The position numbers and the translations under genes were made by a program. From Leadbettera azotonutricia ZAS-9 (GTDB lineage Bacteria > Spirochaetota > Spirochaetia > Treponematales > Breznakiellaceae), in NCBI RefSeq assembly GCF_000214355.1, contig NC_015577.1, positions 1,349,121-1,413,120 of the forward strand: DNA of 64,000 nt. Reading direction: 5' to 3'. Shown here in pieces: positions 27,600-47,117 of this stretch. Under the pieces are notes generated by a model. The model was not told the origin of the DNA, made no database searches, and saw only the letters and a program-made list of their open reading frames with translations. Position 1 is the stretch's first letter. Every line of letters begins with the position of its first letter.

Positions 27600-30233
27600 C
27601 AGGGATCCATTATTTTCATATTCTTTCCGAGCAATAACCAGCATATTGGAAAATATTTTTTTTAGACCAGGTTGTTTATCTGTCAGCATTTGTAAATTTT
27701 CGTTTAGTTTATTCGAAAACACTTTGGAATATGATATTGGCAGCTGCGCCCTTATTTTGGTTTGAAGAGATAGAAAATATGTTTCGCCAATAGCTGAACA
27801 AATCTGATTCATTAATTCATCATTATCCAATTGTGGATTATAAGCAAGTAATTGTAGAATGCTTATAAAATTTGCAGGGGATTTAGAAACAATGTCCGTT
27901 ATTTTATCAAGGTATTTTTTTGCATATTCTTCAAAAGCATTTCCGGGGAATTTGAACACTGATAATAACATCGCATGCTGGGCATCAGTTTTTATTGCAG
28001 GGACAATTTTATCAATTAGTGTTTTGCAATAGATAGTTTCTGTAAAATCCAAATCAACGGATATTTTACTCCCCATGTTTTCTTTAAGGATGGCAGTTAA
28101 TTTATCCGGTTGTCCGCTATATTGTTGGAGGTTTGCCAATAATACCCCGCAGGCAGAACGGGAATAGTTTGTTTCCCCGGAGGCCAGGCTCATAAGTTTC
28201 CGCTCAACTGCATCCTCGGGGGATCTTGGCTTGATTATTAATGGAAGTTTTTTGTCAATTAGTTCATAAAGCTCAAGTTTGGCCTTTTCGTTCAGGTTTG
28301 ATGTTTCCAGACGATCAAGTATTGTTGAATAGTGCGAAATATCTGACCTGTTAATATATTCTTTAAAGAATGCCCTTCCATGTGGGTAGGGCAGGGGGTT
28401 TTTGTAAAGAGCATGGAATATTGCATAGAGATCGTCTGTTTTTGTGCCCTGCTGCATTTTTACGATCAGAATATATTCAACCCGCCCGGTAAACCCTTTT
28501 TCAAAAAGACTGTGGCAAAAAACGTCAATATCTTTGATGGAAAATTTGTCTGTATATACATCGGTAACACAACCCCAGAAAAAACTGGATGTATTGGCAT
28601 CAGTGCGGTATTTTTCCCCCAGGGGCAAAATAAGTTTTATTGCCTTTGCAATAGTATCGATATAAGTTTCGATAATATGTTTGGAAATTTTATTATTCTT
28701 TAATTTAATCCCTTGATTCAACGCACTTATAAGAAGCTTATTCCAGTTTTCGTCTCCTGGCTGTTTAAGGGTTTGAAGGCACGAGGAATATATGAATAAT
28801 ATCTGTTCTATGGTGTCTGGATTAGCGGTGTCAAGTATCTTTCCGTATTGCACTGCATATTGTTCGTTAACAAGTTTCTTTATGGCTATAGGCGCAAAGG
28901 GCTGCTTTTTTAAATTTTCAAAGCTTTGCATTAATGACGGGGAGCCTTTGGCCAGTTTGCCTGTAAAAGCATTTAATGCGATACCGCACAATTCCTCTTC
29001 ATTGGCCTCTCCCATTTTATACATGCAATCAATAAGGCGGTATCCACTTGCCTCGTCTCTTTGCATTAAACGCCCTATATTGGAAACAAGCTTTTTGGAT
29101 AGCATGTTATTTGCTGATAAATTGTGGTCTTTTTCCAGCAGCAATTCAAGATATTCAACAAGGTTTTCGCAAACCCATGCACTGTCATCGGTATAAAAGA
29201 TATAATTATAGGCAGAATACAGTTTATATATATCGGGGGATATTCCAATATCACTAATCCCGGATAGAAAACCGCAAAATGATTTATGAACCTGATCAAA
29301 GCGGGTAATGGCGGTATAGTATTCGTTGTCAATGTCGGCATCGGCCTCAAATGAGAAGGTGTTCTGGGTGCCATCAAGCAGGCAATAGGGAGAAGCCGGC
29401 AGGACACGCATGGCATTGGCCGCGCTATCCCGTATATCAATGCCAATGATCATTGCCTTAAGCCGTTTTTGGGAATTTTGTTCTGTAAATGCGCAGGAAA
29501 GACCGTTGTTGCCTATGCTGTACCGGTTCCCTTTGGTGCCGCCTGTTGCGGCTGCATCAGACATCCTTGTAGCAAACGGGATTGTGCAGGCAATTTCAGG
29601 AGAAAAAGCATATTCAATAGCCGCAATCCAGAGTTCTATATTTTTGGTGGTGTCTTTAATTATAAGGTATTTTCTTTCCCCAGGGGGAAGGGCATACTGG
29701 CTGAAAAGAAACCATACGGCGGCTTTTAAAAGTTCAGTGCGTTCCTGGGAAATGAATTTTCCGGTTGTTTCAAAATTTATAGCCCCCGGCTGTAATGGTG
29801 TTTTTCTTTGGGGTAAAAACGGAGGCAGGTTTTCCCTGTATCCGTAATAGTAATCTTCGCTTTTATCCTTGGCATCCCAATCCCTGCTTCCGAAAGCTTC
29901 GCAGGGATAAGCGGCAAGATCCCCGGCGAAAATATGGGAAATGTAGTTACCGGATCTTCCTTTGGAATTGGGGATAGGGTGAAAATTCTGAAACAGGGGC
30001 TTGCCCTTTTCCGGAACAAAGTATAAATAAGCATCGTCAATAAAATCGGGTTCGGAAAATGGATGAGCTATACTGGCTGCATTCTTCAGGAATGGCAAAT
30101 CAGGGATTGATCCGTCATGAAACATTTCTTCGCTGCATGAATGGAATTTATACCCCTCATTGGAAATAGGGCCGCCTTTTTTAAGAATGTCCCTGCCTGT
30201 TCCGCATCTTGTATATATCAATTCATTCAACAT
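27564..30233 (-). CDS. GTPase-associated protein 1-like protein
   Basis: The 889-aa protein opens with ELIYTRCGTGRDILKKGG and SNEGYKFHSCSEE, followed by HPIPNSKGRSGNYISHIF. This resembles the N-terminal domain of the protein family I recall as GTPase-associated protein 1 (GAP1), which is linked to double-GTPase conflict systems in comparative genomics. The middle (about residues 200-420) and the long C-terminal part are helical and have no motif I can name. No signal peptide or membrane span is present. GGGAGG precedes the ATG. It is the last gene of the seven-gene operon, 26 nt after the small GTPase gene. A role as effector or adaptor of the GTPases is inferred from family context and not shown by the sequence. 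Confidence 0.75.
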   Translation of the reverse strand: MLNELIYTRCGTGRDILKKGGPISNEGYKFHSCSEEMFHDGSIPDLPFLKNAASIAHPFSEPDFIDDAYLYFVPEKGKPLFQNFHPIPNSKGRSGNYISHIFAGDLAAYPCEAFGSRDWDAKDKSEDYYYGYRENLPPFLPQRKTPLQPGAINFETTGKFISQERTELLKAAVWFLFSQYALPPGERKYLIIKDTTKNIELWIAAIEYAFSPEIACTIPFATRMSDAAATGGTKGNRYSIGNNGLSCAFTEQNSQKRLKAMIIGIDIRDSAANAMRVLPASPYCLLDGTQNTFSFEADADIDNEYYTAITRFDQVHKSFCGFLSGISDIGISPDIYKLYSAYNYIFYTDDSAWVCENLVEYLELLLEKDHNLSANNMLSKKLVSNIGRLMQRDEASGYRLIDCMYKMGEANEEELCGIALNAFTGKLAKGSPSLMQSFENLKKQPFAPIAIKKLVNEQYAVQYGKILDTANPDTIEQILFIYSSCLQTLKQPGDENWNKLLISALNQGIKLKNNKISKHIIETYIDTIAKAIKLILPLGEKYRTDANTSSFFWGCVTDVYTDKFSIKDIDVFCHSLFEKGFTGRVEYILIVKMQQGTKTDDLYAIFHALYKNPLPYPHGRAFFKEYINRSDISHYSTILDRLETSNLNEKAKLELYELIDKKLPLIIKPRSPEDAVERKLMSLASGETNYSRSACGVLLANLQQYSGQPDKLTAILKENMGSKISVDLDFTETIYCKTLIDKIVPAIKTDAQHAMLLSVFKFPGNAFEEYAKKYLDKITDIVSKSPANFISILQLLAYNPQLDNDELMNQICSAIGETYFLSLQTKIRAQLPISYSKVFSNKLNENLQMLTDKQPGLKKIFSNMLVIARKEYENNGSLLKKLGNFIFGN

Positions 30234-30259: not shown

Positions 30260-31339
30260 TTATTTAGAATCTATAAACTTATTTTTGGCAAAAAGCCATA
30301 ATGCAGGATCCAAAACACGGTGTGGATGGATAGGACTTAATTGGTCAATTGAAACGGGGACTGCGCCGAAACTGGACACCCCAAAGAATACAAATTCGTT
30401 GAAATTTGCCTCCAAGCCATTGATAAACGCAGTTTCGCCTTTATCCTGCATCCAGCTTCGTATATCATTGTCTACTGCCCTGGAATCGCTTTCATGAAAA
30501 TAATCGATATGGGGGCTTGGCGAAGATACAGGCCGATTTCTGAATTCATGCATAAGGGCATCCATTTTTGTAAAAACCACCGCTACAGGCACATTTATCT
30601 TCTGATTAAACCTGAGGCCCCGGGAGCTTTTGATATAAGAAGCTATATTATGAACAACATCGCTCGAATCCTTATACATTGAAGCTCCTACTCCGGATAT
30701 GGATTTTTCATATACTTCTTTATCGAGCGAATTTCTTACGCTCTGAAGTATCATAGGATCAATAACAACCATAATGGCCTTTGAAACTGAGATATAACGG
30801 CATTCAGGCGAATTTTCGTCAATATTTTCATGATCCTCGCCGGCTCCGTCAAAAATACTGAAAGTATAGGTCTTAATGGTATTGAACGCCTGGCGGTTAA
30901 GATTTTGGATGCGCCAGATTTGCGGGGTAGGTTGGCCACTTCTGGTTGATCCGGGTTTTTTGTGTTCTTCGTAGATCAACTGCCGATTTGCACTATGGGT
31001 TTCACGGGTGTATTTGTTTTGCGGCGCTATAGATAATTGCAAATTTGCGGTCTTTCGAAGCTCTTCCAGCATTACGGTTATATAATTTGTTTTCCCTGCC
31101 CCTGACACCCCGACTATGCTGAAAAGCAGATTTGGTGTATAAATCATATCGCGCGGTAGTTCGCCTTCGCATTTCGGGCATAAAATTTTGAACGCCAATT
31201 TACCGCATTCTTTGCATGTTACTTTTTTAGTTGCCCTTTCTATAAGAGTTGGTTTTGAATTATGACCGCAAGATCCACATTGGTATAAGAGGTCATCCTT
31301 ATCAATGCTGCCAAAGCAGTAGGGGCAAATTATTTTCAT
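30260..31339 (-). CDS. Zinc-ribbon P-loop GTPase, soluble (double-GTPase type)
   Basis: Two zinc ribbons open the 359-aa protein: Cys5, 8, 21 and 24 (CPYC...CGSC), then CKEC...CPKC. The GTPase core has GVSGAGKT at residues 77-84 (P-loop Lys83), a switch II-like FDGAGED, the base-specificity motif VFTKMDAL (TKxD, a variant of NKxD) and VSSFG as a possible G5. This points to GTP rather than ATP. There is no membrane segment. CAGGAGGAG precedes the start. Its partner is the membrane-bound GTPase at the head of the same operon; the pair fits what I recall as double-GTPase systems. A sensing or switch role in a conflict pathway is inferred. Confidence 0.85.
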   Translation of the reverse strand: MKIICPYCFGSIDKDDLLYQCGSCGHNSKPTLIERATKKVTCKECGKLAFKILCPKCEGELPRDMIYTPNLLFSIVGVSGAGKTNYITVMLEELRKTANLQLSIAPQNKYTRETHSANRQLIYEEHKKPGSTRSGQPTPQIWRIQNLNRQAFNTIKTYTFSIFDGAGEDHENIDENSPECRYISVSKAIMVVIDPMILQSVRNSLDKEVYEKSISGVGASMYKDSSDVVHNIASYIKSSRGLRFNQKINVPVAVVFTKMDALMHEFRNRPVSSPSPHIDYFHESDSRAVDNDIRSWMQDKGETAFINGLEANFNEFVFFGVSSFGAVPVSIDQLSPIHPHRVLDPALWLFAKNKFIDSK

Positions 31340-31377: not shown

Positions 31378-34300
31378 TTAAATCTGGCCGGTAAACTTTT
31401 CGATAAAGCCTGTGCGGTATTCATCAACTGAATCCTCATTTCTTAAAAAAAGGCTTAAATAGGTTCCCTTTGGGATATTTTTATTCACTATATAATTGAG
31501 GGAAACCTGCTGCATTGGCTTATATTCAAGTTCCCCGGTAGCATATAGCTCAATAGCATGCGAATCCTTTGGCGAATGGAGCATGGAATTATTTGAGCTG
31601 TAGCAAAGGGCCAGCGGGGGCAATGTGGTAATGGAATTAGTTGCCCTGAATTCAATGATGAGTTCAACCTCCTGGGAAAAGAGCTTGCGCTTAACACCCC
31701 AATTGATGGCCGCTGGACGCTTGTTGCTGAAGCGTTTTTTTACCGGTTCCGCATATTGTATTTTATTCCCTGTCTCATATGCGGTGATAAATGTTATATA
31801 ATAATCCATATCTTCGGTAATTCCCGGAACCGCTATCTCGTTTGATTTCATGCAGGCTGCCACAGATATCCTTGTCATTTCGGGGATGTCCTTTATGCTG
31901 CCCCAGGGAACATTATTATCAGTCTTTCTTCTGGCGAAATAATATATGCAGGACATATTATCGGGCAATGGCGTATTAAGGGTAAAATACAGGATTGTAT
32001 TCTCCAAGTGGGGCTTTCCGGCCAATTCACAGGGTTTGCAACTGTTTATGAATACTGTATTGCTGGCAATCCCGCTGCTCCCGAAGGATGAAAAACACAC
32101 GACATTGAAAAAAGTCCCTTCTTTTACCTTAATGCTTGCAGAGCCATTTTCTGCCCGGCCTGTAATAATTACTTTCCCGGCAGAACGGATATCGTTGTCA
32201 CTGTATGTCTGGCCTTCCTGGATAACAGCATTCTCATTTAACATAACAAATCTAAGATCAAATCCCGGTTCTATAGGATCCCATGCCAGGCGGCTGTTTT
32301 CGCCATCTCTTTTAACGGAAAGCCTGATTGGTTTGGGCTTATGCTCGGGAAGGACTGTAAAAGTTAAGCCCGCAGACGGAATTGTTCCCGAATTATCTGA
32401 ATAAAGGGCCTGGAGCCGGTATCCGTAACGCTGTCCGCATATTAAATTTGCATCATTAAAACTGCGCTGGGCATTGTCGGATAATTTTTTAGCATTATCA
32501 TTAAGCGAAGGGACGCTGCCATCTTTCCGGGTAATGCGTACGCCGATGCAATTTTTGGGCAAATCCCAGGTCATGGAACAGGCGCGTTCTCCGGTCTCAA
32601 TTTTTAATGTTGCTATATCAATATCTTTGTATGATGCGGCTGTGGCACCGGTTCCTTTGGAGGTGATATCAAAACGTTTGGCAAATATTGAATAACCGTA
32701 TAAGATTCCAGGCTCAATGTTTTTATCCTGAAAATCCAGGGAAAATTGATCATCTAAAAGGATGGCGCCGTCATGAATATTGGCCGGGATGCCGCCTGTC
32801 TTGCGGACCAAGGAATATTTAACCGCCTCATCCGGGGATGGGGCCCATAAGATGGCGCAATTCCCGGTTGCCGGATCGGGCTTTGCGGTGAGCATAGGAG
32901 GGGGCGCCGGCGGAGTTGCTGCCAAAAATGCCCGGGCAGCTGCATAGTCGGCACAGTCATTTAGGATTTCAATGCAGATTTTGGCTTTTTGAACCGGGGT
33001 CATTGATGCAGTGGATGCAAACAGCTTGTTTGCCTTCTCAATCCGGGTTTTTACAGGCGCCTCAAAGGAAGATATATCCAATTTCGGCTGTTTTATGCGG
33101 AGGTCCGCAATTTTGAAAGCTGCAGCTTGCAGTTTTTTGCTGTCAATTAAGGCGCGAATTTCCTCCAGGGGCTTTTCATATTTTGCCAGGGCCTCTTTCA
33201 GGCTTTTTTCCAGGGAACCCAATCGGGGTTCCCTCGGATTGGCATTCCTGGCCTTTCCAAATTCCTTTTGCGCCTCAACAAGGTCAAAGCGTTCCAGGGC
33301 GTCAATTGCCGCGTCATAATACATCCCAAAGTTTTTGACCCCGGCTATAAAAAAGCTGCAATTTCCCTTTGGGCAATATTCAGTGCGGGTAGGAACAAAT
33401 TCGCCGCATTTGGGGCACGGAATGTAAAGAGCGGCTCCGCATGCGGGGCATTTGGCTTTTTTTGCGGTTTCAAAGCTGGTAAATGTGGAATCCGTGCCGC
33501 AGGTGCATGAAACATTTATTATGATTTGTTCCGGTTCATAGGGGTCTTCCAAAAGAAGGGCTTCTTTATTATAGATTGCAAGAGCCGCATCATAATTGGG
33601 GAAAACCTTTTGGATTTTCTTGATGCAGGATTCGGCGAATTCGGGTAGTCTTCGTGTTGTTTCGATTGTTTTTTTCAGTGTGTTGAACAAGTCCCGCAAA
33701 TTTTCGTAGAGCAGGGAATTCTGATATTTTTTCCGGTTGTCATCGCTGTTAAAGACCTGAGTGATGCCTGTCGAACAGAGGGTTGATAGAACATGGCCGA
33801 TATCATCGCTGCGCCGGGTATATTCCGGCGCCTTTACCTGTAGGGCGCTCTTTATATCTACCGTATTCATGGAAACATAGGATGAGCCTTTTGCTAAATT
33901 ATTTTCTATATAGGCAGTGAACCAAAACAAATCGCGGATTTGCGTTAAATCAGCGCCCTGGGGGTCCTTATGGGATTGCAAGGAAATAATATTCCTGTTT
34001 ATGGTATCCAGTGTAACGGATTCAAGAAGCTGAGGGAGGGTGCCTTTAGTTTCAATAATGGTGAAACCTTCACCCTGAAATATTTCTTCTACCGATTCCT
34101 TGCTCAGGCGATGGGTTTTCCGGTATGAATTAATCTTCCCCTTTGTAACGGTACGATTTCCAGTGCTTGCGGTTATCTCAATTATGCCTTTTAAGGAACT
34201 GACAGCTTTTTCCTTCATTTCTGCCGCTTCAGCCTTGTATTCCTCCGTGGCCGGGTTCATAACCTTGCACAGTGGACCGGGACTTTTCTCGTCCCCTATG

Positions 34301-34473
34301 AGTTTTTTTATTTCGTCAAGCTTTTTTCTTTCATTGGTATCCGTTTCCGCCTGAAGCCGGGCTTCTGTTTCTTTTCTTAAATTATTGATTTCTATTTCTA
34401 TCTTTTTTGCATTTTTTTCGGGAGGATCAAATATTATTCTAGGCAATAATTCAAAAAAGTTTTGCCTGGCCAT
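31378..34473 (-). CDS. Large zinc-ribbon and Fn3-repeat protein
   Basis: The 1031-aa protein has a charged helical N-terminal region (about 1-310; IEIEINNLRKETEARLQAET), a zinc-binding region (about 325-375: SCTCGTD, CPACGAALYIPCPKCGEF, CPKGNC), a helical stretch of TPR-like spacing (about 380-510), and then several Fn3-like beta modules to the C-terminus. These begin near PPPMLTAKPDPATGNCAILW and continue through VRITRKDGSVPSLND and PIRLSVKRDGENSRLAWDP. No enzyme motif is seen. It probably serves as a scaffold or recognition subunit in the chaperone-GTPase complex (inference). Its start codon lies 1 nt after the stop of the HSP70-vWA gene, with GGAGG 12 nt before it. Confidence 0.7.
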   Translation of the reverse strand: MARQNFFELLPRIIFDPPEKNAKKIEIEINNLRKETEARLQAETDTNERKKLDEIKKLIGDEKSPGPLCKVMNPATEEYKAEAAEMKEKAVSSLKGIIEITASTGNRTVTKGKINSYRKTHRLSKESVEEIFQGEGFTIIETKGTLPQLLESVTLDTINRNIISLQSHKDPQGADLTQIRDLFWFTAYIENNLAKGSSYVSMNTVDIKSALQVKAPEYTRRSDDIGHVLSTLCSTGITQVFNSDDNRKKYQNSLLYENLRDLFNTLKKTIETTRRLPEFAESCIKKIQKVFPNYDAALAIYNKEALLLEDPYEPEQIIINVSCTCGTDSTFTSFETAKKAKCPACGAALYIPCPKCGEFVPTRTEYCPKGNCSFFIAGVKNFGMYYDAAIDALERFDLVEAQKEFGKARNANPREPRLGSLEKSLKEALAKYEKPLEEIRALIDSKKLQAAAFKIADLRIKQPKLDISSFEAPVKTRIEKANKLFASTASMTPVQKAKICIEILNDCADYAAARAFLAATPPAPPPMLTAKPDPATGNCAILWAPSPDEAVKYSLVRKTGGIPANIHDGAILLDDQFSLDFQDKNIEPGILYGYSIFAKRFDITSKGTGATAASYKDIDIATLKIETGERACSMTWDLPKNCIGVRITRKDGSVPSLNDNAKKLSDNAQRSFNDANLICGQRYGYRLQALYSDNSGTIPSAGLTFTVLPEHKPKPIRLSVKRDGENSRLAWDPIEPGFDLRFVMLNENAVIQEGQTYSDNDIRSAGKVIITGRAENGSASIKVKEGTFFNVVCFSSFGSSGIASNTVFINSCKPCELAGKPHLENTILYFTLNTPLPDNMSCIYYFARRKTDNNVPWGSIKDIPEMTRISVAACMKSNEIAVPGITEDMDYYITFITAYETGNKIQYAEPVKKRFSNKRPAAINWGVKRKLFSQEVELIIEFRATNSITTLPPLALCYSSNNSMLHSPKDSHAIELYATGELEYKPMQQVSLNYIVNKNIPKGTYLSLFLRNEDSVDEYRTGFIEKFTGQI

Positions 34474-34474
34474 T

Positions 34475-36646
34475 TTAAATAGATTCCTCCCAGGTATCCG
34501 TATTCAGGGTATCTTTATCCCTCCCTTTAGCACCGGTACTATTTCCCATGCTTTGGGCGATTTTGCCGAAGGTTCTTGTCAATTCGGACTGGGATACGAA
34601 CAGGGCATTTGCGTTAGACGAAGAAATATTCTGCAGGAAACATTCGTCTGCAGCGCCAAACCCAATGGCCGCAACTTCAATATTTTCTGAGTGGCATTTT
34701 TTTGCCGCCGTGATCGCCTTATCCTGAGCATCCCATACACCGTCGGCCAGTATAATGGCAAAACGCCTGCCCCTCCGGCCGGACAGCTCATTCCTGATTT
34801 CCGTAAAAGGATGGGCAGAATTTCCATATCCTGTCTGGCCACAGCTAATGTGCCTGATGGCGGCGCTGCATTTTTTGGCGTCGGATGTGAGGTGTTGGAC
34901 AACTTCAGAATTATCCGATACGGCAACTACCCCAACCTGTGTTGCAGACATATCCATTTGACTGACAAAGGAGCACATAGCGTCCTGAGCGTCCTTTAAT
35001 GGCGCGCCGCTCATACTGCCAGAGACATCGACTGCCAGCATGACGAATGTTTCTTCTTTTGCCTTGAATTCCTCCGGGTCAAGGGGCCGCCCATACTTTG
35101 ACATATCATCGGGCACCGGTTCTTTGTGTATAGGCAAGTCAACGGTATCTTTATCCTGGCGGGCCTGGACATGTATTACCCCGTTCTGATCGTAGCTGTA
35201 CTGAACCCGCAGAATCGTCTGCCCGCCATTGACGTGGCGAATTCCCGAAACCACAAATTTATAGGGTATCACGCAATCCAGGGGCTTTTTGTCGCCCTGC
35301 AAAACATAGATTTCCAGCTCGTTTTCTTCCCTGGAACTTGTATAAAATTTGAAGGCCCGGGCAGATTTTACCGGTATGGAGTTATTGGCAGGTATAATCG
35401 TTTCGTTAATATACTCTGTCCCTTCCTGATTAATCGCGATAATGCCCATTGCATGGGTGGTAACATCGCTGACTTTAAGAAGGGTGATATTGGATATGCG
35501 CTTCTCCTGGCCAATGGCGGTATTAATGCCCGAAGGTTTTTTTGCCCTGCTGTTTGCCCCTGACGGGATGGCTGCAAGGGTTGTGTAAACAGGTTCTTTT
35601 AGGACAGTCTGAACTGCCGCGCCGAGAGCCACTGCCTCATCGGGGTTTACATGGGATATTGGTTTTTTCCCCGATAGGCCAAGAAGGTAATTTGATACCT
35701 GGGGCATCCTCGTTAAACCGCCGACCAGCAGGATGTCAGTTATATCCGGCCAGCGTACGCCTGCATCCTTCAGGACTGTTGTGCAAAGGGTCCCGGTCCT
35801 ATTCAATAAAGCCACAGTAAGGTTTTCAAATTCTTCGCGTTTAATTTCGATTGTGCATTGCCCGAACCCGGGGATACTCACGGGGATTTTAACGGATGCC
35901 TTTTGGGATAGCTGCTTTTTACAAGACTCAGCCAGCCTTGTTACCAGGGTGAGGGTTTCCTGATCCTCCCGTGGATCAATGCCGGTTTCGTCCAATACTT
36001 TTTCCGCCATAAGCTTGCCAAGCATGGCGTCCCAGTCCCTGCCGCCAAGGATATGATCCCCGGATGTCGCAATTGTGGAAAGATCGTTTTCGCGCTCCAT
36101 TGCCACAAGGGTAACATCGCAGGTGCCCCCGCCTAAATCGAAAACCAGTATTTTGGCATTGGTTCTCCAATGGTTAAGGCCATAGGCAATAGCGGCAGCA
36201 GTGGGCTCATTGATAATTTTGCGGACTTTTAAACCCGCCAGGCGGGCGGCCTTCATGGTGGCTTCCCGTTCTTTGGAATAAAAATAAGCCGGCACGGTTA
36301 TTACCGCTTCCTCAATCGGCTCTTTCATAACAAACTCGGCATCTTCTTTTAGATGGCGCAGAAGGATGGCAGAAAGATCCTCGGCAGTATAATCCTTGCC
36401 CCCTATGGTGCAGTAGGTTTTATCCAGGCCCATATTCCGCTTGAAGCTTGCCGCGCAATCGGCGACCCCGGCATCGAAAGCATCCTTCGCTTCCGAACCG
36501 AACACCAGGCCTTCATCAGTAAACTGAATAATAGACGGCGTAGTATTGCTGCCTTCCCTGTTGGGAATAATTTTTGGCAGCCCTGTATTGCTGTCTATAA
36601 GCGCTACTGCGGAAAATGTCGTGCCTAAATCTATACCCACCACCAT
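34475..36646 (-). CDS. HSP70 ATPase fused to a von Willebrand A domain
   Basis: Residues of about 1-350 form an HSP70 actin-like ATPase: MVVGIDLGTTFSAV, VFDLGGGTCDVTLV, LLVGGLTRMPQV. A shortened substrate-binding part follows to about 500. The usual alpha-helical lid is missing. In its place is a vWA domain (about 530-690) with an intact metal site, DVSGSMSG (Asp540), plus a Thr/Asp pair further on (LADGVWDAQD). vWA domains bind partner proteins through a metal ion. The fusion suggests that client or partner recognition is done by the vWA module. The gene follows the HSP70 gene by 3 nt. It is 723 aa, against about 640 for DnaK. Confidence 0.88.
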   Translation of the reverse strand: MVVGIDLGTTFSAVALIDSNTGLPKIIPNREGSNTTPSIIQFTDEGLVFGSEAKDAFDAGVADCAASFKRNMGLDKTYCTIGGKDYTAEDLSAILLRHLKEDAEFVMKEPIEEAVITVPAYFYSKEREATMKAARLAGLKVRKIINEPTAAAIAYGLNHWRTNAKILVFDLGGGTCDVTLVAMERENDLSTIATSGDHILGGRDWDAMLGKLMAEKVLDETGIDPREDQETLTLVTRLAESCKKQLSQKASVKIPVSIPGFGQCTIEIKREEFENLTVALLNRTGTLCTTVLKDAGVRWPDITDILLVGGLTRMPQVSNYLLGLSGKKPISHVNPDEAVALGAAVQTVLKEPVYTTLAAIPSGANSRAKKPSGINTAIGQEKRISNITLLKVSDVTTHAMGIIAINQEGTEYINETIIPANNSIPVKSARAFKFYTSSREENELEIYVLQGDKKPLDCVIPYKFVVSGIRHVNGGQTILRVQYSYDQNGVIHVQARQDKDTVDLPIHKEPVPDDMSKYGRPLDPEEFKAKEETFVMLAVDVSGSMSGAPLKDAQDAMCSFVSQMDMSATQVGVVAVSDNSEVVQHLTSDAKKCSAAIRHISCGQTGYGNSAHPFTEIRNELSGRRGRRFAIILADGVWDAQDKAITAAKKCHSENIEVAAIGFGAADECFLQNISSSNANALFVSQSELTRTFGKIAQSMGNSTGAKGRDKDTLNTDTWEESI

Positions 36647-36649: not shown

Positions 36650-38293
36650 TTATGCTTCGCTCGTAGTTGTTATTGCAGCAAGGGCTGTGGTCGCTTTTTT
36701 CAGCTCTTCCTCAGTAAGGGTGTTATCCGAAATCAGCGAAGTTTCGACTGTATCCCCTGTCTTGCTGTTGACAGCCTTTACAAAGAGGCCGCTTGGGTCC
36801 AGTTTGAAGGTAACTTCTATCGGGGAATTCTTGGGTGTGTGAGTCGGCAGGCCGAGTGTCAATTCTCCAATCTTTTTCATTTTCAGCGCAGGATCGGTGT
36901 ATTGCTCATTGCCTTCGCTGTCTACGCATGGCACAAGCTGCCTGTTGTTTGGATCATCAGAAGAGTTTTCGAATACCCGTATGAGTATCTCTTGCTGATT
37001 ATCCGCCATAGTAGCGTAGTTCCCTGTAGCCTCAACAGGGGAATCTTCGCCTATCAATATCAGGTTGTCGACTTTGTATTCGTTGTCAAACATAACGCCG
37101 GGGCCGAAAGAACGAGGGGCTTTATCATTTACTTTCATGGGTTTTCCGATTAGGGGAAGAACCCCGCTCTTGTCCCCCGCACTGCCGGCATTTGGGTTTT
37201 CAGCCAAAAGCTGTTCATTTACCTTCATGGCCGCGTACAATGCCGCGCCTTTGGCAACTGCCAAATCCGGATCTTCCCTGCGGACCTTATTAGGGAACCG
37301 TTCACTGATGGTGTTAAAAACCATGGGCATGAATGTAGAACCGCCCACGAGCAAAACGATATCAATATCCTGTTCGCTAAGCTTTGACTTACCCAGTATG
37401 CTGTCTATAAAACCGGTTGTTTGAGCGACCAGGTCTTTGGTCATATCATTAAACTGTTCCTGGGTAACCTCAAGCTTTGTAGTATCCCCGTTATAACTTA
37501 TAGTTGCTTTTGTGGAAGCCAATTGGGAGAGCTTTTTCTTGATTCCCTCGACATTGCTCCGTATGGCTTGCTTAAGCCCCACATCGGAATCTTCCGGCGT
37601 GGTCCCATTCTCGTTGCAATAGGCAATCAATAGATGCTGAAAGAGCCTGTCGTCCCAGTCTTTGCCGCCCAGCCTGTCGTTGCCATCGGTAGCAATTATA
37701 TCAATATTCGCGGCATCATTGTTGTCAACACTCATTTTAAGAATTGAAACATCAAAGGTGCCGCCGCCCAGATCATATACCATTATGGTGCGATTTTCCT
37801 TAAACTCCCGGGCGCAATAATTCAAGGCTGCGGCAGTGGGTTCGTTTATGATGCTTAAAACATTAAAACCAGCTACTTCGCCTGCCTGCCTTGTGGCATT
37901 GCGCTCTTCAATGCCGAAATACGCAGGGCAGGTGATAACCACATCATGGACATCATGGCCCTGCTCTTTTGCATATTCGGAAAGGCGCTTGAGTATGAGG
38001 GAAGACAGGGTGATAGGGTTATACTTTATGCCGCCGAAATTAAACGTACGGCCATCCGCCTTGCCTATGTCGCGCTTGATGAATTGAATAACCCTGTCTC
38101 CTTCGAGTTCGGATGAATTTTTCGCTATGTCTCCGATAACAGGGGTGTCGCTCTCATCTGCAGGGAAATAAACCGCAGACGCAAGGGTTGGTTTTCCCTC
38201 AATCTGATTTTCAATGATAACAGGCTTGCCATTATCATCCAATGTAGAGATGGCAGAATAGGTCGTGCCAAGGTCTATGCCGTAAGTAGCCAT
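36650..38293 (-). CDS. HSP70 chaperone (DnaK paralogue, short C-terminus)
   Basis: The 547-aa protein has all phosphate and connect motifs of HSP70: ATYGIDLGTTYSAIS, VYDLGGGTFDVSIL, IINEPTAAALNYC, VLLVGGSTFMPMV. The substrate-binding beta domain is present (about 400-520; LTLGLPTHTPKNSPIEVTFK) but the lid is cut to a short helix (TEEELKKATTALAAITTTSE). It lacks the EEVD-like tail and is shorter than housekeeping DnaK. AAGGAGG precedes the start. It is flanked by the GrpE-like gene and the HSP70-vWA gene, and so is probably devoted to this operon rather than general folding. Confidence 0.9.
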   Translation of the reverse strand: MATYGIDLGTTYSAISTLDDNGKPVIIENQIEGKPTLASAVYFPADESDTPVIGDIAKNSSELEGDRVIQFIKRDIGKADGRTFNFGGIKYNPITLSSLILKRLSEYAKEQGHDVHDVVITCPAYFGIEERNATRQAGEVAGFNVLSIINEPTAAALNYCAREFKENRTIMVYDLGGGTFDVSILKMSVDNNDAANIDIIATDGNDRLGGKDWDDRLFQHLLIAYCNENGTTPEDSDVGLKQAIRSNVEGIKKKLSQLASTKATISYNGDTTKLEVTQEQFNDMTKDLVAQTTGFIDSILGKSKLSEQDIDIVLLVGGSTFMPMVFNTISERFPNKVRREDPDLAVAKGAALYAAMKVNEQLLAENPNAGSAGDKSGVLPLIGKPMKVNDKAPRSFGPGVMFDNEYKVDNLILIGEDSPVEATGNYATMADNQQEILIRVFENSSDDPNNRQLVPCVDSEGNEQYTDPALKMKKIGELTLGLPTHTPKNSPIEVTFKLDPSGLFVKAVNSKTGDTVETSLISDNTLTEEELKKATTALAAITTTSEA

Positions 38294-38294: not shown

Positions 38295-38936
38295 TTATTC
38301 CTCCTTAGTTATGGTGCTGTCAAAAAAATATACATCCACAGCCTCAGGGACAAGAACCCGGGGGCCGATATGGAAACCGGTATTGTAACTTTTTACTACC
38401 GTGCCGTGCAGTTCCTTATCGGCTGTCGGAACTTTGCCGCGAATCCGGCTGTAGCGTTTTGAAACCTGCCCGCCTATAACACTTAAATAGCTTTCTACGC
38501 CATTTTCAGTTAATAGCTGTTCTATATCGCCGAACATATTGCCAAAATTCTTGCGCAGCTTTTGATCCTCAAGCCTTTCGAGATTATTGGCATAATCTGC
38601 ATAAATGCGGCTTATTGCCGACAAGACCGGATCAAGAAGCTGCCTGAACAGGCCGCTGCGGTGCTGTTCAAGTTCCGCCTGCATATTATCCTGAATCCGC
38701 ATAAATGCTGCAAAATCCCTGTGGATTTGGATCATGTCCTGATCATTTTTATCCTGGGCTGATGTGATCATAAGGATTTGGTTTTGTATTTCGTTCATCA
38801 GCCGGGCGCATTCTTCATAAGGGGCGCTATTCTGAGGGGCCTCCAATGCAGGTTCCGGGCTAAAATCCACAGGTTCAGGTTGAATCTCATCCGCAGGAAT
38901 ATCGCCTTCTTTTTTTCCCGGTAACTCTTCTTCCAT
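38295..38936 (-). CDS. grpE: GrpE-like nucleotide exchange factor
   Basis: The 213-aa protein has an acidic, low-complexity N-terminus (about 1-40), a long helix (about 45-110; EIQNQILMITSAQDKNDQDM), then a helical bundle and a C-terminal beta wing (ELHGTVVKSYNTGF, GPRVLVPEAVDVYF) in the order found in GrpE. It should dimerise and release ADP from the two HSP70s encoded next to it. It differs a lot from housekeeping GrpE, so it is likely dedicated. AAGGAGGAG precedes the ATG, and the stop is 1 nt before the HSP70 start. No DnaJ gene is in the operon. Confidence 0.78.
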   Translation of the reverse strand: MEEELPGKKEGDIPADEIQPEPVDFSPEPALEAPQNSAPYEECARLMNEIQNQILMITSAQDKNDQDMIQIHRDFAAFMRIQDNMQAELEQHRSGLFRQLLDPVLSAISRIYADYANNLERLEDQKLRKNFGNMFGDIEQLLTENGVESYLSVIGGQVSKRYSRIRGKVPTADKELHGTVVKSYNTGFHIGPRVLVPEAVDVYFFDSTITKEE

Positions 38937-38955: not shown

Positions 38956-40557
38956 TTATTTCAAAATCTCCGTAAGCTTCGCATCATATTGATTTATAAT
39001 CCACATAACAGGTTCCAAAACACCCCAGGGGTCATAGGAATCATTTTCGCTTTTTTCATGCCCCATGGCGCTGATTGGGAAATAATGAACATTGGTGAAT
39101 TGCGCCTTCAGGTTGTTCAACACACCGGACATCCCTATACTGTTCAGATACTCGCGGCAGATGGAATCCCGGGCTTCGTCCTTATTATTGTGATAGCGTT
39201 CAGCATTGTTTTTAAAATTTTCCAGGATTTTTGGCAGCCCAATCTGTTTTTTGATGATATCCACATCGGCCTTTGTTATTACCACTGAGACAGGAATATC
39301 ACTCATTTTTCCTGTCTTGGTATATTTTTTGGAAAACTCTTCTATGTAGCCTGTAATTACGTCGCCGATGTTTGAAGTGGAAAAGTTCATAGGCAGTGTT
39401 CCGCCATGAACGCTTTCGTACTGGGTTCGGACACCTGCCACACTGAAGGGGTCCACCATGAAAATAATGCCTTCGCAGTAGTGGTACTGGTGCTGCCCAA
39501 CTGCCGATTGGTTTTCAAATACTTCGCCGGCAATATCATATATTGAAAGTTGGTGGGATAAATCAGAATTCCTTCTTTTATAAACGATACTGTACATGTT
39601 GGCATTCATGTCATTTGTGGATTCGCTTTTACCGGTAGCAAACCATTTCTCCAATTCATTAAAACTATCCTGAGGGTATGCCTTGATCTCGATGCCATTA
39701 TTTTTCCTGAGGTTTTGAAGGTACAGATGCAAAAAGGATGTTAAAAAGGTTGTTTTCCCGGCGCTTACGCCCCCGACAAGCTGTATGCCGAACTGGCTTG
39801 CGCTGCTTGAAGCAAGCTCATGCCCGCAGTCCGGGCAAATGGCTTCCAGTTTGGATCGGCCATTCAGGAAAGTGCTGGGCAGCTTGCAGCCGCAGGAACA
39901 GGTTGTGGAAAAAATTCCATAAGGGCCGGGAACTAGGTTTGTATGCTTCGTACCGCAGGATGGGCACAGAAATGCAGGTATAGTGCTGCGTTCTTTACAA
40001 TCAGGGCAGCGGGCAGATATAGAATTGACAAGCAGGACAAGGCGGTCGGATATCCAGAGCAGCGTAAAAAGCGCGTATACGATGCACATAAAGGCAAAAA
40101 TAAAAACAAAATGCACCGCCGAAAAAACGGCAGTCCAAAGGCTGCCGAACACCCAAATGACAACTGAGAAAACAATAAAAAACAGCCAGGGAAACATTTT
40201 TATGTACCAAGGGGACCCAAGGCCATTTACCCAGCTCCTTACCTTGCCCCAGGTTTCAACGTTATTTGACCATGCGCCTTTAATGATGTTGCTGATCTGG
40301 TGATACCCAGGCCCAAAAAAATAACTACGCCGGGCCTCCTTAAATGGTTTTTTGGAAGAGGCATCAACATAGGTTGTATAGGGGTTTCTGTTTGCTACAC
40401 ATGATCTTACATAATTGATAAGGGAGACAAGAAAAGCGCTGACAACCCCGATACCGGCAGAGGCCGAAGCAATAATGGACACCAAAGGTATGATAACGTA
40501 TCTGATAAGGAGGTAGAGCAGATAAATAACGATGACAGCTAAAATAATATACCCCAT
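38956..40557 (-). CDS. Membrane-anchored zinc-ribbon P-loop GTPase (double-GTPase type)
   Basis: First gene of the operon, 533 aa. Two hydrophobic segments open it (about residues 2-22 and 24-48) and two more occur at about 122-165 (LFFIVFSVVIWVFGSLWTAV). Zinc ribbons follow at about 182-255 (CPDCKE, CPSCGTK, CSCGCK, CPDCGHE). The GTPase domain has GGVSAGKTTF with Lys268, the switch II-like YDIAGEVF, VITKADVD (TKxD) and a terminal PISAMG. It should sit in the inner membrane with its GTPase in the cytosol. It pairs with the soluble zinc-ribbon GTPase of the same operon. AAGGGGG precedes the ATG. Confidence 0.85.
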   Translation of the reverse strand: MGYIILAVIVIYLLYLLIRYVIIPLVSIIASASAGIGVVSAFLVSLINYVRSCVANRNPYTTYVDASSKKPFKEARRSYFFGPGYHQISNIIKGAWSNNVETWGKVRSWVNGLGSPWYIKMFPWLFFIVFSVVIWVFGSLWTAVFSAVHFVFIFAFMCIVYALFTLLWISDRLVLLVNSISARCPDCKERSTIPAFLCPSCGTKHTNLVPGPYGIFSTTCSCGCKLPSTFLNGRSKLEAICPDCGHELASSSASQFGIQLVGGVSAGKTTFLTSFLHLYLQNLRKNNGIEIKAYPQDSFNELEKWFATGKSESTNDMNANMYSIVYKRRNSDLSHQLSIYDIAGEVFENQSAVGQHQYHYCEGIIFMVDPFSVAGVRTQYESVHGGTLPMNFSTSNIGDVITGYIEEFSKKYTKTGKMSDIPVSVVITKADVDIIKKQIGLPKILENFKNNAERYHNNKDEARDSICREYLNSIGMSGVLNNLKAQFTNVHYFPISAMGHEKSENDSYDPWGVLEPVMWIINQYDAKLTEILK

Positions 40558-40624: not shown

Positions 40625-40654
40625 ATAATATTCTATGTATCTGGAAGCTGTCAA
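40625..40654 (-). promoter_or_regulatory. Promoter of the seven-gene GTPase/HSP70 operon
   Basis: Minus strand: perfect TTGACA (40654-40649), 18-bp spacer, TATTAT (40630-40625). The expected leader is about 60 nt, ending with the AAGGGGG ribosome site of the first gene. No heat-shock CIRCE element (TTAGCACTC-N9-GAGTGCTAA) is visible, so HrcA control is not supported. No other good promoter was seen between the seven genes. Confidence 0.6.
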
Positions 40655-40806: not shown

Positions 40807-40839
40807 GCGGGTGTATGCAGGTATGTCTGCAACACCCGC
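40807..40839 (+). promoter_or_regulatory. Hairpin in the integrase leader
   Basis: GCGGGTGT and TGCAG pair with CTGCA and ACACCCGC with one bulged A and a 6-nt loop. The stem ends just before the AAGGGG ribosome site (40841-40846) of the integrase. It has no T-run, so termination is unlikely; translational control or a recombination site is possible. Confidence 0.5.
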
Positions 40840-40853
40840 AAAGGGGTTTAACC

Positions 40854-42269
40854 ATGCGAGTAAGGGAATCTTATTCACTGTACCAGCGGAAGACACCGGC
40901 GGGGGTGGTCTTTTATTATCAGGTGTATGATGAGAACGGGAAACGGCTGTGCGGTCATTCCACGGGGAAAACGACCAAAACGGCGGCAAGGGAGTTTTGC
41001 AACCAGCTTTTGAAGGCCGGAAAGCTGATGCCGGAAAAAGAGAAAAAACCGACCTTTGGGGAGTTTGCCCAAGGGTGGTGGGATTTTGAGACTTGCCGAT
41101 ATACCAAGAGCCGAAACGCCCGGAACGCACTTACCCAGCGATACCTTGATACTGCCAACTACACCCTGAAACAGTATATTTTGCCTTACTTTGAAAAGGC
41201 TCGTGTTGACCTGATTACCGATACCATGATCGATAACTGGCTCATTTCCTTGCTGGACAAGGGCTTTAAAAAAAATACTGCCAATACTGCTTTCAACATT
41301 TTTAGGACTATGTTTACTTACGCTCACCGGAAGTTACGGCTTATTCCGTCCAACCCTTTTGATGTGGTACAAAAGCTCGGCTCGGCCAAAAAAGAAGATG
41401 AGGATGAAGATGATACAGAGGAGCAGGAAGCAATGACCATCCTTACCCCGGAAGAGGTGAAGCTGCTATTTCCTGAAAACTGGGAAGATGTGTGGACTAA
41501 AAAATTTTACTATGTGCTGAACAAGCTGGCGGCTTGTACGGGTATGCGGCTGGGGGAAATGCTGGGGCTGAAAGCCAAGTATGTGTGTGACGGCTATGTG
41601 TATGTCAGAAAACAATTTGATAATTATGGCTACCGGAATGTTAAGACAAAAAAGCCCCGGTATATTCCTATCCCCAAGGGGGTCGAAGATGACCTGCGGG
41701 AGCTTATTGCGAAGAACGGGGACGGGTTTGTTTTTGTTTGGAGACCTAATGCTCCTAAGCCGGTATCGCGGGCTTGTGTAACTATTGAGTACCACCGGGC
41801 ACTTGAAAAGATAGGGATTGCCCGTGATGTACAAACAAAACGGGGGCTGCATATGCACAGTTGGCGGCATTTCTTCAACACCTTCCTCCTGATGGCAAAT
41901 ATATCTGATGACAAGGTAATGGCACTGACGGGGCATACTACTCAAGCTATGAGAAAGCATTACACCCATTTTGATGGCTCTAAGTTTACGGATGTGAAAG
42001 CCTTGCAGGAAAAGATGATGGACCAAAACCCGGCAACCCTTGAACCTGCTCCTACTCCGGCGCAGATACCGGAACCGCTTTCAGCGCCGGGCGGGGCGGT
42101 AAATATCCAGATGCTTAATGTGGTGGTGCCTTCGTCTGAAACGGGCGATCCTATGGCCTGGCTTGAACGGGTGGACTTCTCGATTATTGCGGATGTGGTA
42201 AACGGGAAAAGGCGGGAGCGTGATGTAACGGAGAATAGCGCCGCCATCCATACCCCTGGCGCTGTCTAG
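40854..42269 (+). CDS. Tyrosine recombinase (phage-type integrase)
   Basis: The ATG at 40854 has AAGGGG 7 nt upstream and opens MRVRESYSLYQRKTPAG, a small N-terminal arm-binding beta domain. A core-binding helical domain follows (about 70-170). The catalytic domain has Arg in CTGMRLGEMLGL, HSWRHFF (HxxR), and GHTTQAMRKHYTHF with the nucleophilic Tyr. The total is 471 aa, with a Pro-rich tail of about 80 residues beyond the catalytic core (LEPAPTPAQIPEPLSAPG). It should insert and excise the element. A terminator follows. The divergent neighbour is the GTPase/HSP70 operon promoter, about 200 bp away. Confidence 0.93.
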   Translation: MRVRESYSLYQRKTPAGVVFYYQVYDENGKRLCGHSTGKTTKTAAREFCNQLLKAGKLMPEKEKKPTFGEFAQGWWDFETCRYTKSRNARNALTQRYLDTANYTLKQYILPYFEKARVDLITDTMIDNWLISLLDKGFKKNTANTAFNIFRTMFTYAHRKLRLIPSNPFDVVQKLGSAKKEDEDEDDTEEQEAMTILTPEEVKLLFPENWEDVWTKKFYYVLNKLAACTGMRLGEMLGLKAKYVCDGYVYVRKQFDNYGYRNVKTKKPRYIPIPKGVEDDLRELIAKNGDGFVFVWRPNAPKPVSRACVTIEYHRALEKIGIARDVQTKRGLHMHSWRHFFNTFLLMANISDDKVMALTGHTTQAMRKHYTHFDGSKFTDVKALQEKMMDQNPATLEPAPTPAQIPEPLSAPGGAVNIQMLNVVVPSSETGDPMAWLERVDFSIIADVVNGKRRERDVTENSAAIHTPGAV

Positions 42270-42290
42270 GATTTATAAAAAAGAACTGTG

Positions 42291-42325
42291 AGCCGTCCTT
42301 GGGAAACCGGGGGCGGCTTTTTTTT
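42291..42325 (+). terminator. Terminator after integrase gene
   Basis: AGCCGTCC pairs with GGGCGGCT across an imperfect loop (42291-42318), followed by a run of eight T residues. It lies about 22 nt after the integrase stop codon and should insulate the excisionase and packaging genes from integrase transcription. Confidence 0.7.
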
Positions 42326-42355
42326 GCCTTGGCGTTAAAAAGTCGTCAAAATATT

Positions 42356-42370
42356 ACCTTTGTGAAATAT
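42356..42370 (+). repeat. Second copy of the 15-bp word ACCTTTGTGAAATAT
   Basis: This is an exact copy of 40713-40727 in the same orientation. It lies 32 nt before the excisionase-like gene. The two copies bracket the integrase gene. Shared binding of an element-encoded regulator or Xis/Int is a reasonable guess. Confidence 0.6.
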
Positions 42371-42402
42371 CCAGTTTTTTAATTCCGCGCGAAAGTAGGG
42401 AC

Positions 42403-42678
42403 ATGGAAACAACAAAAACAGTTTGGGCGGAAAAGATAATCGTCATCGAGGACTTGATGACGATTCAGGACGTGGCCCGGATTACCCAATTCAAGGTTTG
42501 CACGATCCGCAAGTTTGTGTTGAAGGACACGATCCCCTATATCAAGGTGGGGGGCGGCTTGCGGTTCCGGCCTTCGGAGATTGCGGCGTGGATTAACGGG
42601 TCTGCGAAAGGCGGCAATTCTGCGGGTTCCCCGTCCGGGCAGGCAGGTATGGGGGCGGATGATGACGGACATAAATAA
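42403..42678 (+). CDS. Excisionase-like helix-turn-helix protein
   Basis: The 91-aa protein is a MerR-like winged helix of the excisionase (HTH_17) type: LMTIQDVARITQFKVCTIRK is the helix-turn-helix, and IPYIKVGGGLRFRPSEIAAW is the wing with the family Arg/Phe/Arg positions. The tail is Gly/Ser-rich. It probably directs excision, or acts as an activator of the packaging genes as AlpA-type proteins do in satellites. Its last codons overlap the start of the next gene by 20 bases, showing translational coupling. Confidence 0.82.
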   Translation: METTKTVWAEKIIVIEDLMTIQDVARITQFKVCTIRKFVLKDTIPYIKVGGGLRFRPSEIAAWINGSAKGGNSAGSPSGQAGMGADDDGHK

Positions 42679-43267
42679 GGTCATCGAGGAAGTCTGGCAT
42701 CAAGATGCCTTGGCGGCGGCTATGCCTTTTGAGAGCTGGGAACGGCTGACCGGGGAAAGTGCGGCGGCGTTTGCGGCGTTCTGCGCTTTCCGTGATTACG
42801 GGCCGGAACGGAATATCCGCAAGGCGGTTGAGGGGCAATTCCGCAAGGCAGAATTGCCTACGGAGTTTTCGCCAGAAGCGAAAACTCCACCCTGCAATTA
42901 TAACGCGCTTATCGCAAAGAAATACCGGGTTTGGCGGGGCTGGGCGGCGGCCTTCAAGTGGCGGGAACGGGCGGCGGATTATGACGGCTATGTAGACAAA
43001 CTGAAACAGGCGGAGCTGCGGAAAACCATTGAGGAACAGGGGAAGGTTCACCGGGCGATTACGGGAAAAATGCTGCGGGTGGTTGAAAAGAAACTTGACC
43101 TGATGGATCCGGCGGAGCTGGGACAGGGGGCGGTAACGGAGTGGGTTTCTACGGCGATACGGGCGGAGCGGGAAGCGGCGGGACTAACTACCGGGAAAGA
43201 GAAGCCGGAGGGACAGGTCGATAAGAACGGGCAGATTACGTTTCTGCCGGATTTTGAGGGGCTTTGA
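42659..43267 (+). CDS. Probable phage terminase small subunit
   Basis: The start is the first ATG of the pair ATGATG at 42659-42664, within the previous gene. The 202-aa protein has no close signature I can name. It is basic and helical, with a segment CNYNALIAKKYRVWRGWAAA that could be a DNA-binding region, and charged helices (about 125-160; LRKTIEEQGKVHRAITGKML). Position immediately upstream of the terminase large subunit, with stop and start 2 nt apart, is the main reason for the call. The small subunit recognises the packaging site on DNA. An alternative is an unrelated packaging accessory protein. Confidence 0.55.
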   Translation: MMTDINKVIEEVWHQDALAAAMPFESWERLTGESAAAFAAFCAFRDYGPERNIRKAVEGQFRKAELPTEFSPEAKTPPCNYNALIAKKYRVWRGWAAAFKWRERAADYDGYVDKLKQAELRKTIEEQGKVHRAITGKMLRVVEKKLDLMDPAELGQGAVTEWVSTAIRAEREAAGLTTGKEKPEGQVDKNGQITFLPDFEGL

Positions 43268-43269
43268 TT

Positions 43270-44493
43270 ATGACGGTGTTTAAGCCCACTACGGTACAAC
43301 GGCAAGCATTACGCCTAGTTAAAAGCGGCGCGAAACATATCTTGCTGTTTGGCGGTTCCCGGAGCGGCAAGACTACGGTGCTGGTGATGGTGATCATCTA
43401 CCGGGCGATCCGTTTTGCGGGTTCCCGGCATTTGATTTGCCGTTACCGGGCCAAGGATGCCCGGAGTTCCGTTCTGCGGGAAACGCTTTTGCCGGCGCTT
43501 ACCAATACCATTGGGACTAACCGTTACAACTATCTGGCCCATGAAAGCATGATTACCCTTTTTAACGGGTCGGAGATTTGGATTGGCGGTCTGGGGGATC
43601 GGGAACAGGCTGACAAGATTTTAGGGCATGAGTACAACACGATCTATTTTAACGAGATTTCGCAGCTTAGTTATATTTCGGTTACTACGGCCTATTCCCG
43701 GCTGGCTATGCGGGTGCCGGGGTGCCGGAATTTGTTTCTGTACGACTGCAATCCGGGCAGCCCTTTACATTGGGCGTATAGGATTTTCATTCGCAAGCAG
43801 CAGTTTCTAAACGGGGAACCGCTGGTAAAACCGGAACTGTACGCCTCGATGATACTTAACCCGGCTGATAATGCGGAGCATTTGCCGGAGGACTATATCT
43901 CCGATGTGCTGGGGGCCATGCCGGAAAAACAGAAAGCACGGTTCCGGGATGGCTCCTGGGTTAAGGCGGAAGGGGTTATCTACGAACTGTTCGATGAATC
44001 CATGATTTTGAAAGCGGCGGATATGCCCAAGGACTATGACCGGATTTGTGCAGGGCAGGATTTCGGACTGAATATTACGAATGTAAAAATCGGCTGGGTG
44101 CATGAGGTTATTTATGTGATTGCCGACTACGGCGCTTTCAACATGACCACTAAATCATTTAACGAGGAATTGGCCGCCCGGCATTGGTTTGATCTGGGGC
44201 CTGATAATTTCAGTTTTCCGGTGTACTGCGATCCGGCTGGCGGGGAGCGGATACAGGAAATTACCGGGGGCGTTAAGGCAAATAATAGCGTTGAAAGCGG
44301 GATCGATTTTATCAATGCGAAGATAGAACGGGGACAATTTTTTGTCGCCGATGGCTGTACTGGTGTCCTTTCGGAGGTATGGGATTACTGCCGGGATGAG
44401 GCGGGGGAAATAATCAAGGTCAATGACCACTACTTAGACGCTCTGCGGTATGCGGTGTTCTCCGATGTGCAACAGGGGGTAATAGCGCAATGA
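43270..44493 (+). CDS. Phage terminase large subunit
   Basis: The start at 43270 has GAGGGG 8 nt upstream. The N-terminal ATPase has Walker A GGSRSGKT (Lys34) and a Walker B-like TIYFNEIS. The C-terminal RNase H-like nuclease begins at GQDFGLNI and includes VYCDPAGGERI and the late DHYLDALRYA, so the acidic metal ligands are present. It cuts and pumps DNA into empty heads. At 407 aa it is slightly short for the family but complete. It overlaps the portal gene by 4 nt (ATGA). Confidence 0.92.
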   Translation: MTVFKPTTVQRQALRLVKSGAKHILLFGGSRSGKTTVLVMVIIYRAIRFAGSRHLICRYRAKDARSSVLRETLLPALTNTIGTNRYNYLAHESMITLFNGSEIWIGGLGDREQADKILGHEYNTIYFNEISQLSYISVTTAYSRLAMRVPGCRNLFLYDCNPGSPLHWAYRIFIRKQQFLNGEPLVKPELYASMILNPADNAEHLPEDYISDVLGAMPEKQKARFRDGSWVKAEGVIYELFDESMILKAADMPKDYDRICAGQDFGLNITNVKIGWVHEVIYVIADYGAFNMTTKSFNEELAARHWFDLGPDNFSFPVYCDPAGGERIQEITGGVKANNSVESGIDFINAKIERGQFFVADGCTGVLSEVWDYCRDEAGEIIKVNDHYLDALRYAVFSDVQQGVIAQ

Positions 44494-47113: not shown

Positions 47114-47117
47114 AACT

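Follow-up and report, generated by a model that had tools for sequence, protein, structure and literature searches.

A von Willebrand A domain at the lid position of an HSP70 encoded in a spirochaete DO-GTPase operon

The operon and its genomic surroundings

The window analysed here is a 64,000-nucleotide stretch of the genome of Leadbettera azotonutricia ZAS-9 (3,855,671 bases in a single contig), a spirochaete that we take to be a termite-gut isolate; all positions given below are those of the window. It contains an operon of seven genes lying on one strand and separated by gaps of 1–38 bases, the fourth of which, at 34475–36646 (-), encodes an HSP70 fused to a von Willebrand A (vWA) domain, hereafter HSP70-vWA. 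In the order of the operon, the genes encode (i) a DO-GTPase with N-terminal hydrophobic (membrane) segments, read from the sequence, and a zinc ribbon (38956–40557 (-); Pfam DO-GTPase2, 35.0 bits for a cut-off of 27); (ii) a GrpE-like nucleotide exchange factor (38295–38936 (-); Pfam GrpE, 28.4 bits for a cut-off of 25.8); (iii) a lidless DnaK paralogue of 547 residues, which a comparison of the tails places as ending just past the substrate-binding β-sandwich, or SBD-β (36650–38293 (-); Pfam HSP70, E = 3.8e-81); (iv) HSP70-vWA; (v) an FnIII/zinc-ribbon protein of 1031 residues with an N-terminal helical module of about 320 residues (31378–34473 (-)); (vi) a zinc-ribbon DO-GTPase (30260–31339 (-); Pfam DO-GTPase2, 28.2 bits for a cut-off of 27); and (vii) a GAP1 protein of the GAP1-N2 type (27564–30233 (-)). 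A scan for the consensus alone places a candidate operon promoter, TTGACA-18-TATTAT with 11 of 12 matches, at 40625–40654 (-).

The identities of the fifth and seventh proteins were reached by bridging through their relatives at the related locus L017. The L017 orthologue of the FnIII protein matches the Pfam fn3 model at 25.6 bits (cut-off 25), and profile matches connect the window protein, through its own orthologues, to this family. The GAP1 protein of the window has no direct Pfam match itself; it aligns with the L017 protein at 33.6% identity over 140 residues (E = 1.6e-9; 4e-86 with an iterated profile), and the latter matches GAP1-N2 at 58.0 bits and GAP1-M at 46.6 bits. No Pfam match to a DnaJ domain was found in the FnIII protein of the window or in that of L017, and a profile comparison of its N-terminus with the J domains of the genome aligned 18 columns, at 39% probability and without an HPD motif. 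Among the seven operon proteins, Pfam showed no match to the AAA+ MoxR family, and the PADLOC models gave no convincing match to any of them.

The operon holds the set that characterizes GAP1-N2 DO-GTPase systems, namely two DO-GTPases (a TRAFAC-clade family) with zinc ribbons and, in one of them, membrane segments, a GAP1 protein and an FnIII protein (both bridged), together with the HSP70 and GrpE of their HSP70 theme. Judged from these matches, it belongs to the HSP70/GrpE theme of the GAP1-N2 DO-GTPase conflict systems predicted by Kaur, Burroughs, Iyer and Aravind (2020, PMC7159879), whose text places the same DO-GTPase pair, one of them of membrane type, in a single operon with GAP1, an FnIII/zinc-ribbon protein, HSP70 and GrpE. 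According to the same text, this theme occurs mainly in actinobacteria and firmicutes, so that the operon of the window extends it to spirochaetes, and the FnIII protein of the theme usually carries a fused DnaJ domain or TPR. The second HSP70 is described there as 'sans its peptide-binding domain', whereas the second HSP70 of the window keeps its SBD-β and carries a vWA domain in place of the lid, three of its relatives having a lectin-like module there.

To the right of the operon lie an integrase and a short module of head genes, followed by a methyltransferase/ResIII/GmrSD cluster. The first of these, an approximately 8-kb region divergent from the operon (40815–48425 (+)), encodes an integrase, a small DNA-binding protein, the small and large terminase subunits, a portal protein, a LuxR-like regulator, a head protease and a capsid protein; no tail genes were recognized among the proteins scanned in it, and a search for direct repeats gave nothing convincing as prophage boundaries. 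It may be what is left of a prophage, or else a satellite that encodes a capsid. The second (51246–57864 (+)) encodes a DNA methyltransferase, a ResIII-type enzyme and a GmrSD/Orf5 restriction-like protein, with a G+C content of 0.315, compared to 0.472 for the window, and is probably a recently acquired restriction cluster. At 49219–49824 (-), roughly 9 kb away from the HSP70 operon, lies a gene for a 201-residue protein whose DnaJ match, at 26.0 bits, falls below the cut-off of 27.8. Altogether, these surroundings resemble a mobile/defence region; this agrees with a defence role without proving it.

Domain architecture of HSP70-vWA

The open reading frame of HSP70-vWA begins with ATG on the reverse strand and encodes 723 residues, in agreement with the first-pass annotation of this DNA. 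Pfam assigns residues 2–351 to HSP70 (E = 4.6e-110), followed by a further HSP70 stretch, and residues 535–687 to VWA (E = 7.8e-18), both matches lying well over the respective cut-offs. The nucleotide-binding domain (NBD; residues 1–350, 35597–36646 (-)), delimited from Pfam, from the motifs of the orthologues and from a comparison with the genome's own DnaK, has intact phosphate and catalytic motifs (G4–S12, K69, E147, D170–D177 and G309–R313), and the ATP-handling motif residues are invariant in an alignment of 15 orthologues, which bears out the initial reading of HSP70 ATPase motifs up to about residue 350. Since the NCBIfam DnaK models match the protein at roughly half their cut-off (356.8 versus 648 bits), it is an HSP70 and not a standard DnaK; a canonical DnaK is encoded elsewhere in the same genome. 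Note that another weak HSP70 match in the genome, at L021, was dropped because inspection revealed no HSP70-like gene there.

HSP70s normally end in an α-helical lid (SBD-α) that clamps the cargo. The AlphaFold2 model of HSP70-vWA, built on the 15 orthologues (mean pLDDT 83), consists of the ATPase domain, β strands between residues 391 and 509, a low-confidence linker at residues 520–529 and a vWA fold at residues 533–701, and contains no lid helices. Residues 1–511 of the model superpose on residues 3–504 of ATP-state E. coli DnaK with a Z-score of 45.4 and an rmsd of 2.4 Å over 463 residues; therefore, the SBD-β (residues 391–511, 35114–35476 (-)) is complete. On this point the first-pass annotation, which had proposed a shortened substrate domain, has to be corrected: among the canonical DnaK/HSP70 features, the ATPase domain and the whole SBD-β are present, and the lid alone is absent. 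The residues of the peptide groove appear similar in kind to those of the genome's own DnaK. Where DnaK passes from the SBD-β directly into the lid, HSP70-vWA has a flexible linker of about 20 residues (512–531, 35054–35113 (-); pLDDT < 50 at 520–529) and then the vWA domain. The same annotation had suggested that a vWA domain replaces the lid and had named a structure prediction of the whole chain as a check; the sequence, the model, in which the C-terminal part adopts the vWA fold, and the orthologues all agree with the replacement.

The vWA domain (residues 532–701, 34544–35053 (-)) is modelled as an alternating β/α, Rossmann-like fold. In Foldseek/VIA searches with the full model, there were only HSP70s among the matches listed, the HSP70 part filling the list, so the vWA assignment rests on Pfam and on the topology of the model; when the vWA domain alone was compared with PDB sequences, one weak but plausible match was found, the vWA domain of TRAP (4f1j). 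The first motif of the predicted metal-binding (MIDAS) site is D540-V-S542-G-S544 (35015–35029 (-)), the DVSGSM stretch with Asp540 as its first residue that had been picked out at the outset, and a further element is Asp635 in the sequence LADG (34742–34744 (-)). D540, S542, S544 and D635 are invariant in the 15 orthologues wherever the alignment covers them. The third MIDAS element, which is normally a Thr, is Asn/Gly in the window protein and in most orthologues and Thr in two divergent members, so that metal binding may be altered. As far as its residues tell, the metal site is four-fifths canonical, and it is plausible that this predicted site binds a client or a partner.

Distribution of the fusion and exchange of the lid-slot module

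A count of HSP70-vWA fusions in genomes, another check named in the first-pass annotation, gave 18 distinct genes in matching loci, of which L035 (lying where a contig ends) and L046 are partial, from spirochaetes, Clostridia, Actinomycetota and other MAGs. A same-family search (150 genomes) matched the C-terminal part in seven genomes besides the window's own, six of which carry true fusions, the seventh (L019) encoding an HSP70 without vWA. When 84,980 species were scanned for the pattern, 15 loci emerged, from Spirochaetota, Clostridia, Lachnospiraceae, Eggerthellaceae, the isolate Bifidobacterium criceti and from MAGs classed as Holophagales, Balneolaceae and Methanomicrobium, and profile searches of further genome samples added three fusions and a partial one. 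Because these 18 genes (including the two partial ones) come from different genomes and share the architecture, an assembly or frameshift artefact was ruled out. The fusion is nevertheless rare, being present in 2 of 296 Spirochaetota genomes, in 2 of 299 genomes of one clostridial sample and in 3 of 291 of another, and overall in about 1% or less of the genomes sampled. The gene order GTPase–GrpE–DnaK–second HSP70–FnIII–GTPase–GAP1 is kept across phyla; at L048, an NBD-only HSP70, of the kind described in PMC7159879, lies beside HSP70-vWA. The proteins of L024 (a Holophagales MAG) and L016 (a Spirochaetaceae MAG) are 81% identical over the NBD and SBD, which points to horizontal transfer or to a binning error.

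Candidate phage relatives were discarded, the tblastn matches being confined to the generic DnaK part, and no relatives of the SBD–vWA part or of the lectin-like module described below were found on viral contigs; on plasmids, there were weak partial matches alone, to an archaeal VWA protein and to a Rhodococcus Hsp70 without vWA. A Rhodococcus plasmid carries the series Hsp70–TPR–GrpE–FtsK. Genes for TrwB/HerA/FtsK-type ATPases adjoin operons of the HSP70-vWA type at L015 (13892–16531), L028 (18432–21059), L047 (1–1947) and L036 (2328–4178), with a resembling gene at L031 (1224–3902); such an ATPase is a possible further component of the system. Separate vWA proteins with List_Bact_rpt (PF09479) repeats are encoded first in the HSP70-type GAP1 operons of L028 (2704–4698) and L033 (3553–5544), and kinase-like and vWA proteins resembling a TerY-type pair are encoded upstream of the operon in L035, a Methanomicrobium MAG (2–2005).

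HSP70-vWA is a real and conserved protein, a variant that is absent from the text searched and lies inside a known predicted system. The fusion is unmentioned in the text of PMC7159879, although the figures of that paper may show it, and our literature search found no paper that names it. The nearest likenesses are partial. CbbQ–CbbO, NorQ–NorD and the other MoxR AAA+/vWA pairs also combine an ATPase with a vWA domain, whose MIDAS recruits a client carboxylate in CbbO (PMC4660213), but their ATPase is an AAA+ ring, whereas in the window it is an HSP70, with the vWA domain fused in cis and no MoxR gene in the operon. CoCoNuT systems (PMC11090510) likewise bring together the Hsp70-like CnuD and a TerY-type vWA in predicted defence operons; there, however, the two are encoded by separate genes and fused to McrB/McrC homologues, and the nucleotide motifs are degenerate, unlike the single fusion with intact motifs described here. 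With canonical DnaK and with lid-deleted DnaK/Hsc70 constructs, HSP70-vWA shares the NBD plus SBD-β unit that superposes closely on ATP-state DnaK; these constructs are artificial, whereas HSP70-vWA is natural and has a new domain at the lid position.

At three related loci, L031, L033 and L034 (truncated), a gene in the same operon position encodes the same NBD and SBD followed, from the same junction, by a module of another kind, some 200 residues long. Between L031 and L033, the modules share 57–59% identity, and they do not align as vWA. The NBD of L031 is 79% identical to that of the vWA-bearing L015 and 45% identical to that of L033, and the tree places L031 among genes that carry vWA (support 80/96; by itself, the label test does not reach significance). 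Neither a Pfam relative of the module nor a convincing sequence relative in the PDB was found. Its model has a mean pLDDT of 53, with a core at 70–93, and matches concanavalin-A-like sandwiches with a best Z-score of 11.7, the structural matches being PL7 alginate lyases, GH16-type enzymes and galectins; this low-confidence model suggests that the lid-slot module of L031 and L033 is a concanavalin-like, and hence lectin-like, β-sandwich.

Both forms share their extreme C-terminus. HSP70-vWA ends in TDTWEESI (34478–34501 (-)), and a tail of this TW[ED] type (TWE, TWD, VWD or TWL) is common, within the window's clade, to the forms with vWA and to those with the lectin-like module, so that it also occurs in orthologues without vWA; it is absent from the deeper clade (L017, L018, L032, L036, L047 and L049) and was found on no other protein of the ten related loci scanned. 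A third arrangement is seen at L016, where the SBD-β of a DnaK paralogue is followed at once by the helical module known from the N-terminus of the FnIII protein. At this locus, four tandem proteins with the same N-terminal module and the DnaK–module fusion lie in one operon (604–16437 (-)). Since relatives have a lectin-like domain there, the place of the lid seems to serve as a slot into which domains for target recognition can be plugged, and the exchange of its module among close relatives is what would be expected of a recognition part under changing demands. Tentatively, and with somewhat more doubt than conviction, we suggest that it is an evolutionary plug-in slot, able to take a vWA domain, a lectin-like sandwich or, on DnaK, the FnIII helical module, and that it would make the protein a re-targetable, ATP-timed sensor for an immune or conflict complex.

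Possible roles of the lid-slot module

Everything beyond this anatomy, mechanism and defence role alike, is inferred. HSP70-vWA may be a lidless, ATP-switched HSP70 whose lid slot holds a recognition or adaptor (sensor) module and which reports to the GAP1/DO-GTPase core, a reading to which we give an even chance. ATP binding and hydrolysis would open and close a peptide groove of low affinity and fast exchange; the GrpE of the operon would reset this cycle, and the lidless DnaK would help it along, as would the helical module at the N-terminus of the FnIII protein. The tethered module, and not a lid, would supply specificity and dwell time, the vWA metal ion gripping a carboxylate on the surface of one particular protein, be it a partner or an invader, in much the same way as CbbO brings Rubisco to a MoxR ATPase, and the GAP1/DO-GTPase core would read the ATP cycle and then set the response. 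HSP70-vWA would thereby act as an assembly or sensing switch and not as a general folding chaperone.

Deletion of the DnaK lid is said to increase both the on- and off-rates of peptide, if the title of the 2001 work of Buczynski et al. is any guide. Lid-deleted Hsc70 retains its ATPase activity and co-chaperone binding and loses its folding activity (PMC3315512); in the light of these lid-deletion results in Hsc70 and DnaK, a naturally lidless HSP70 suits a fast, ATP-timed switch. The first-pass annotation had proposed that ATP hydrolysis may serve to assemble a specific complex and not to fold proteins, which is consistent with the behaviour of lid-deleted Hsc70 and with an operon that would be a GAP1-N2 DO-GTPase conflict system. 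In CbbQO, the vWA MIDAS of CbbO grips a carboxylate of the client and so recruits it to the ATPase (PMC4660213). The text of PMC7159879 describes a pattern of constant core and variable module for GAP1/DO-GTPase systems, whose conflict or defence role it presents as a genomic prediction, and the lid-slot exchange fits this pattern, which favours an adaptor or sensor on an HSP70 switch. Against this reading stand the unusual third MIDAS element, the lack of a convincing PADLOC match to the operon proteins, the failure to find relatives on viral contigs and the low confidence of the model behind the lectin-like fold.

We rank this reading above three others. The vWA domain might instead dock HSP70 on the FnIII/zinc-ribbon protein, GAP1 or a DO-GTPase, with no external client, the HSP70 pair being a built-in assembly factor for a membrane complex; if the operon's own proteins were its sole partners, the module may be a scaffold and not a sensor. 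The tightness of the operon and its conserved order, the L016 fusion of DnaK to the N-terminal module of the FnIII protein, and the C-terminal tail, whose retention across module types suggests a fixed partner, all speak for such a scaffold. A fixed internal dock, however, is not expected to be swapped for an unrelated fold in relatives as close as L031 and L015, and we regard this possibility as rather unlikely, if worth keeping in mind. That the vWA domain stands exactly where a lid would be, behind a complete SBD-β, would also suit a functional lid that folds back on the SBD-β and traps peptide in an otherwise ordinary chaperone, but the connection is predicted to be disordered, the neighbouring DnaK does without any lid and an unrelated fold is able to occupy the same place, which makes a lid substitute improbable. 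The last alternative is a common HSP70 paralogue to which a neutral domain was fused at the C-terminus in one strain, devoid of conserved function. The rarity of the fusion in the Spirochaetota and clostridial samples speaks for it; it is refuted by the 18 genes, the invariant MIDAS Asp/Ser/Ser/Asp residues and the conserved operon, and we consider it highly implausible.

In HSP70s, specificity usually comes from co-chaperones and grip from the lid. If the adaptor or sensor reading is true, a natural lidless HSP70 with exchangeable recognition domains would illustrate how evolution can turn a general chaperone into a dedicated and targetable switch, and the MIDAS residues and swappable modules offer a concrete handle on the putative role of the large GAP1/DO-GTPase systems.
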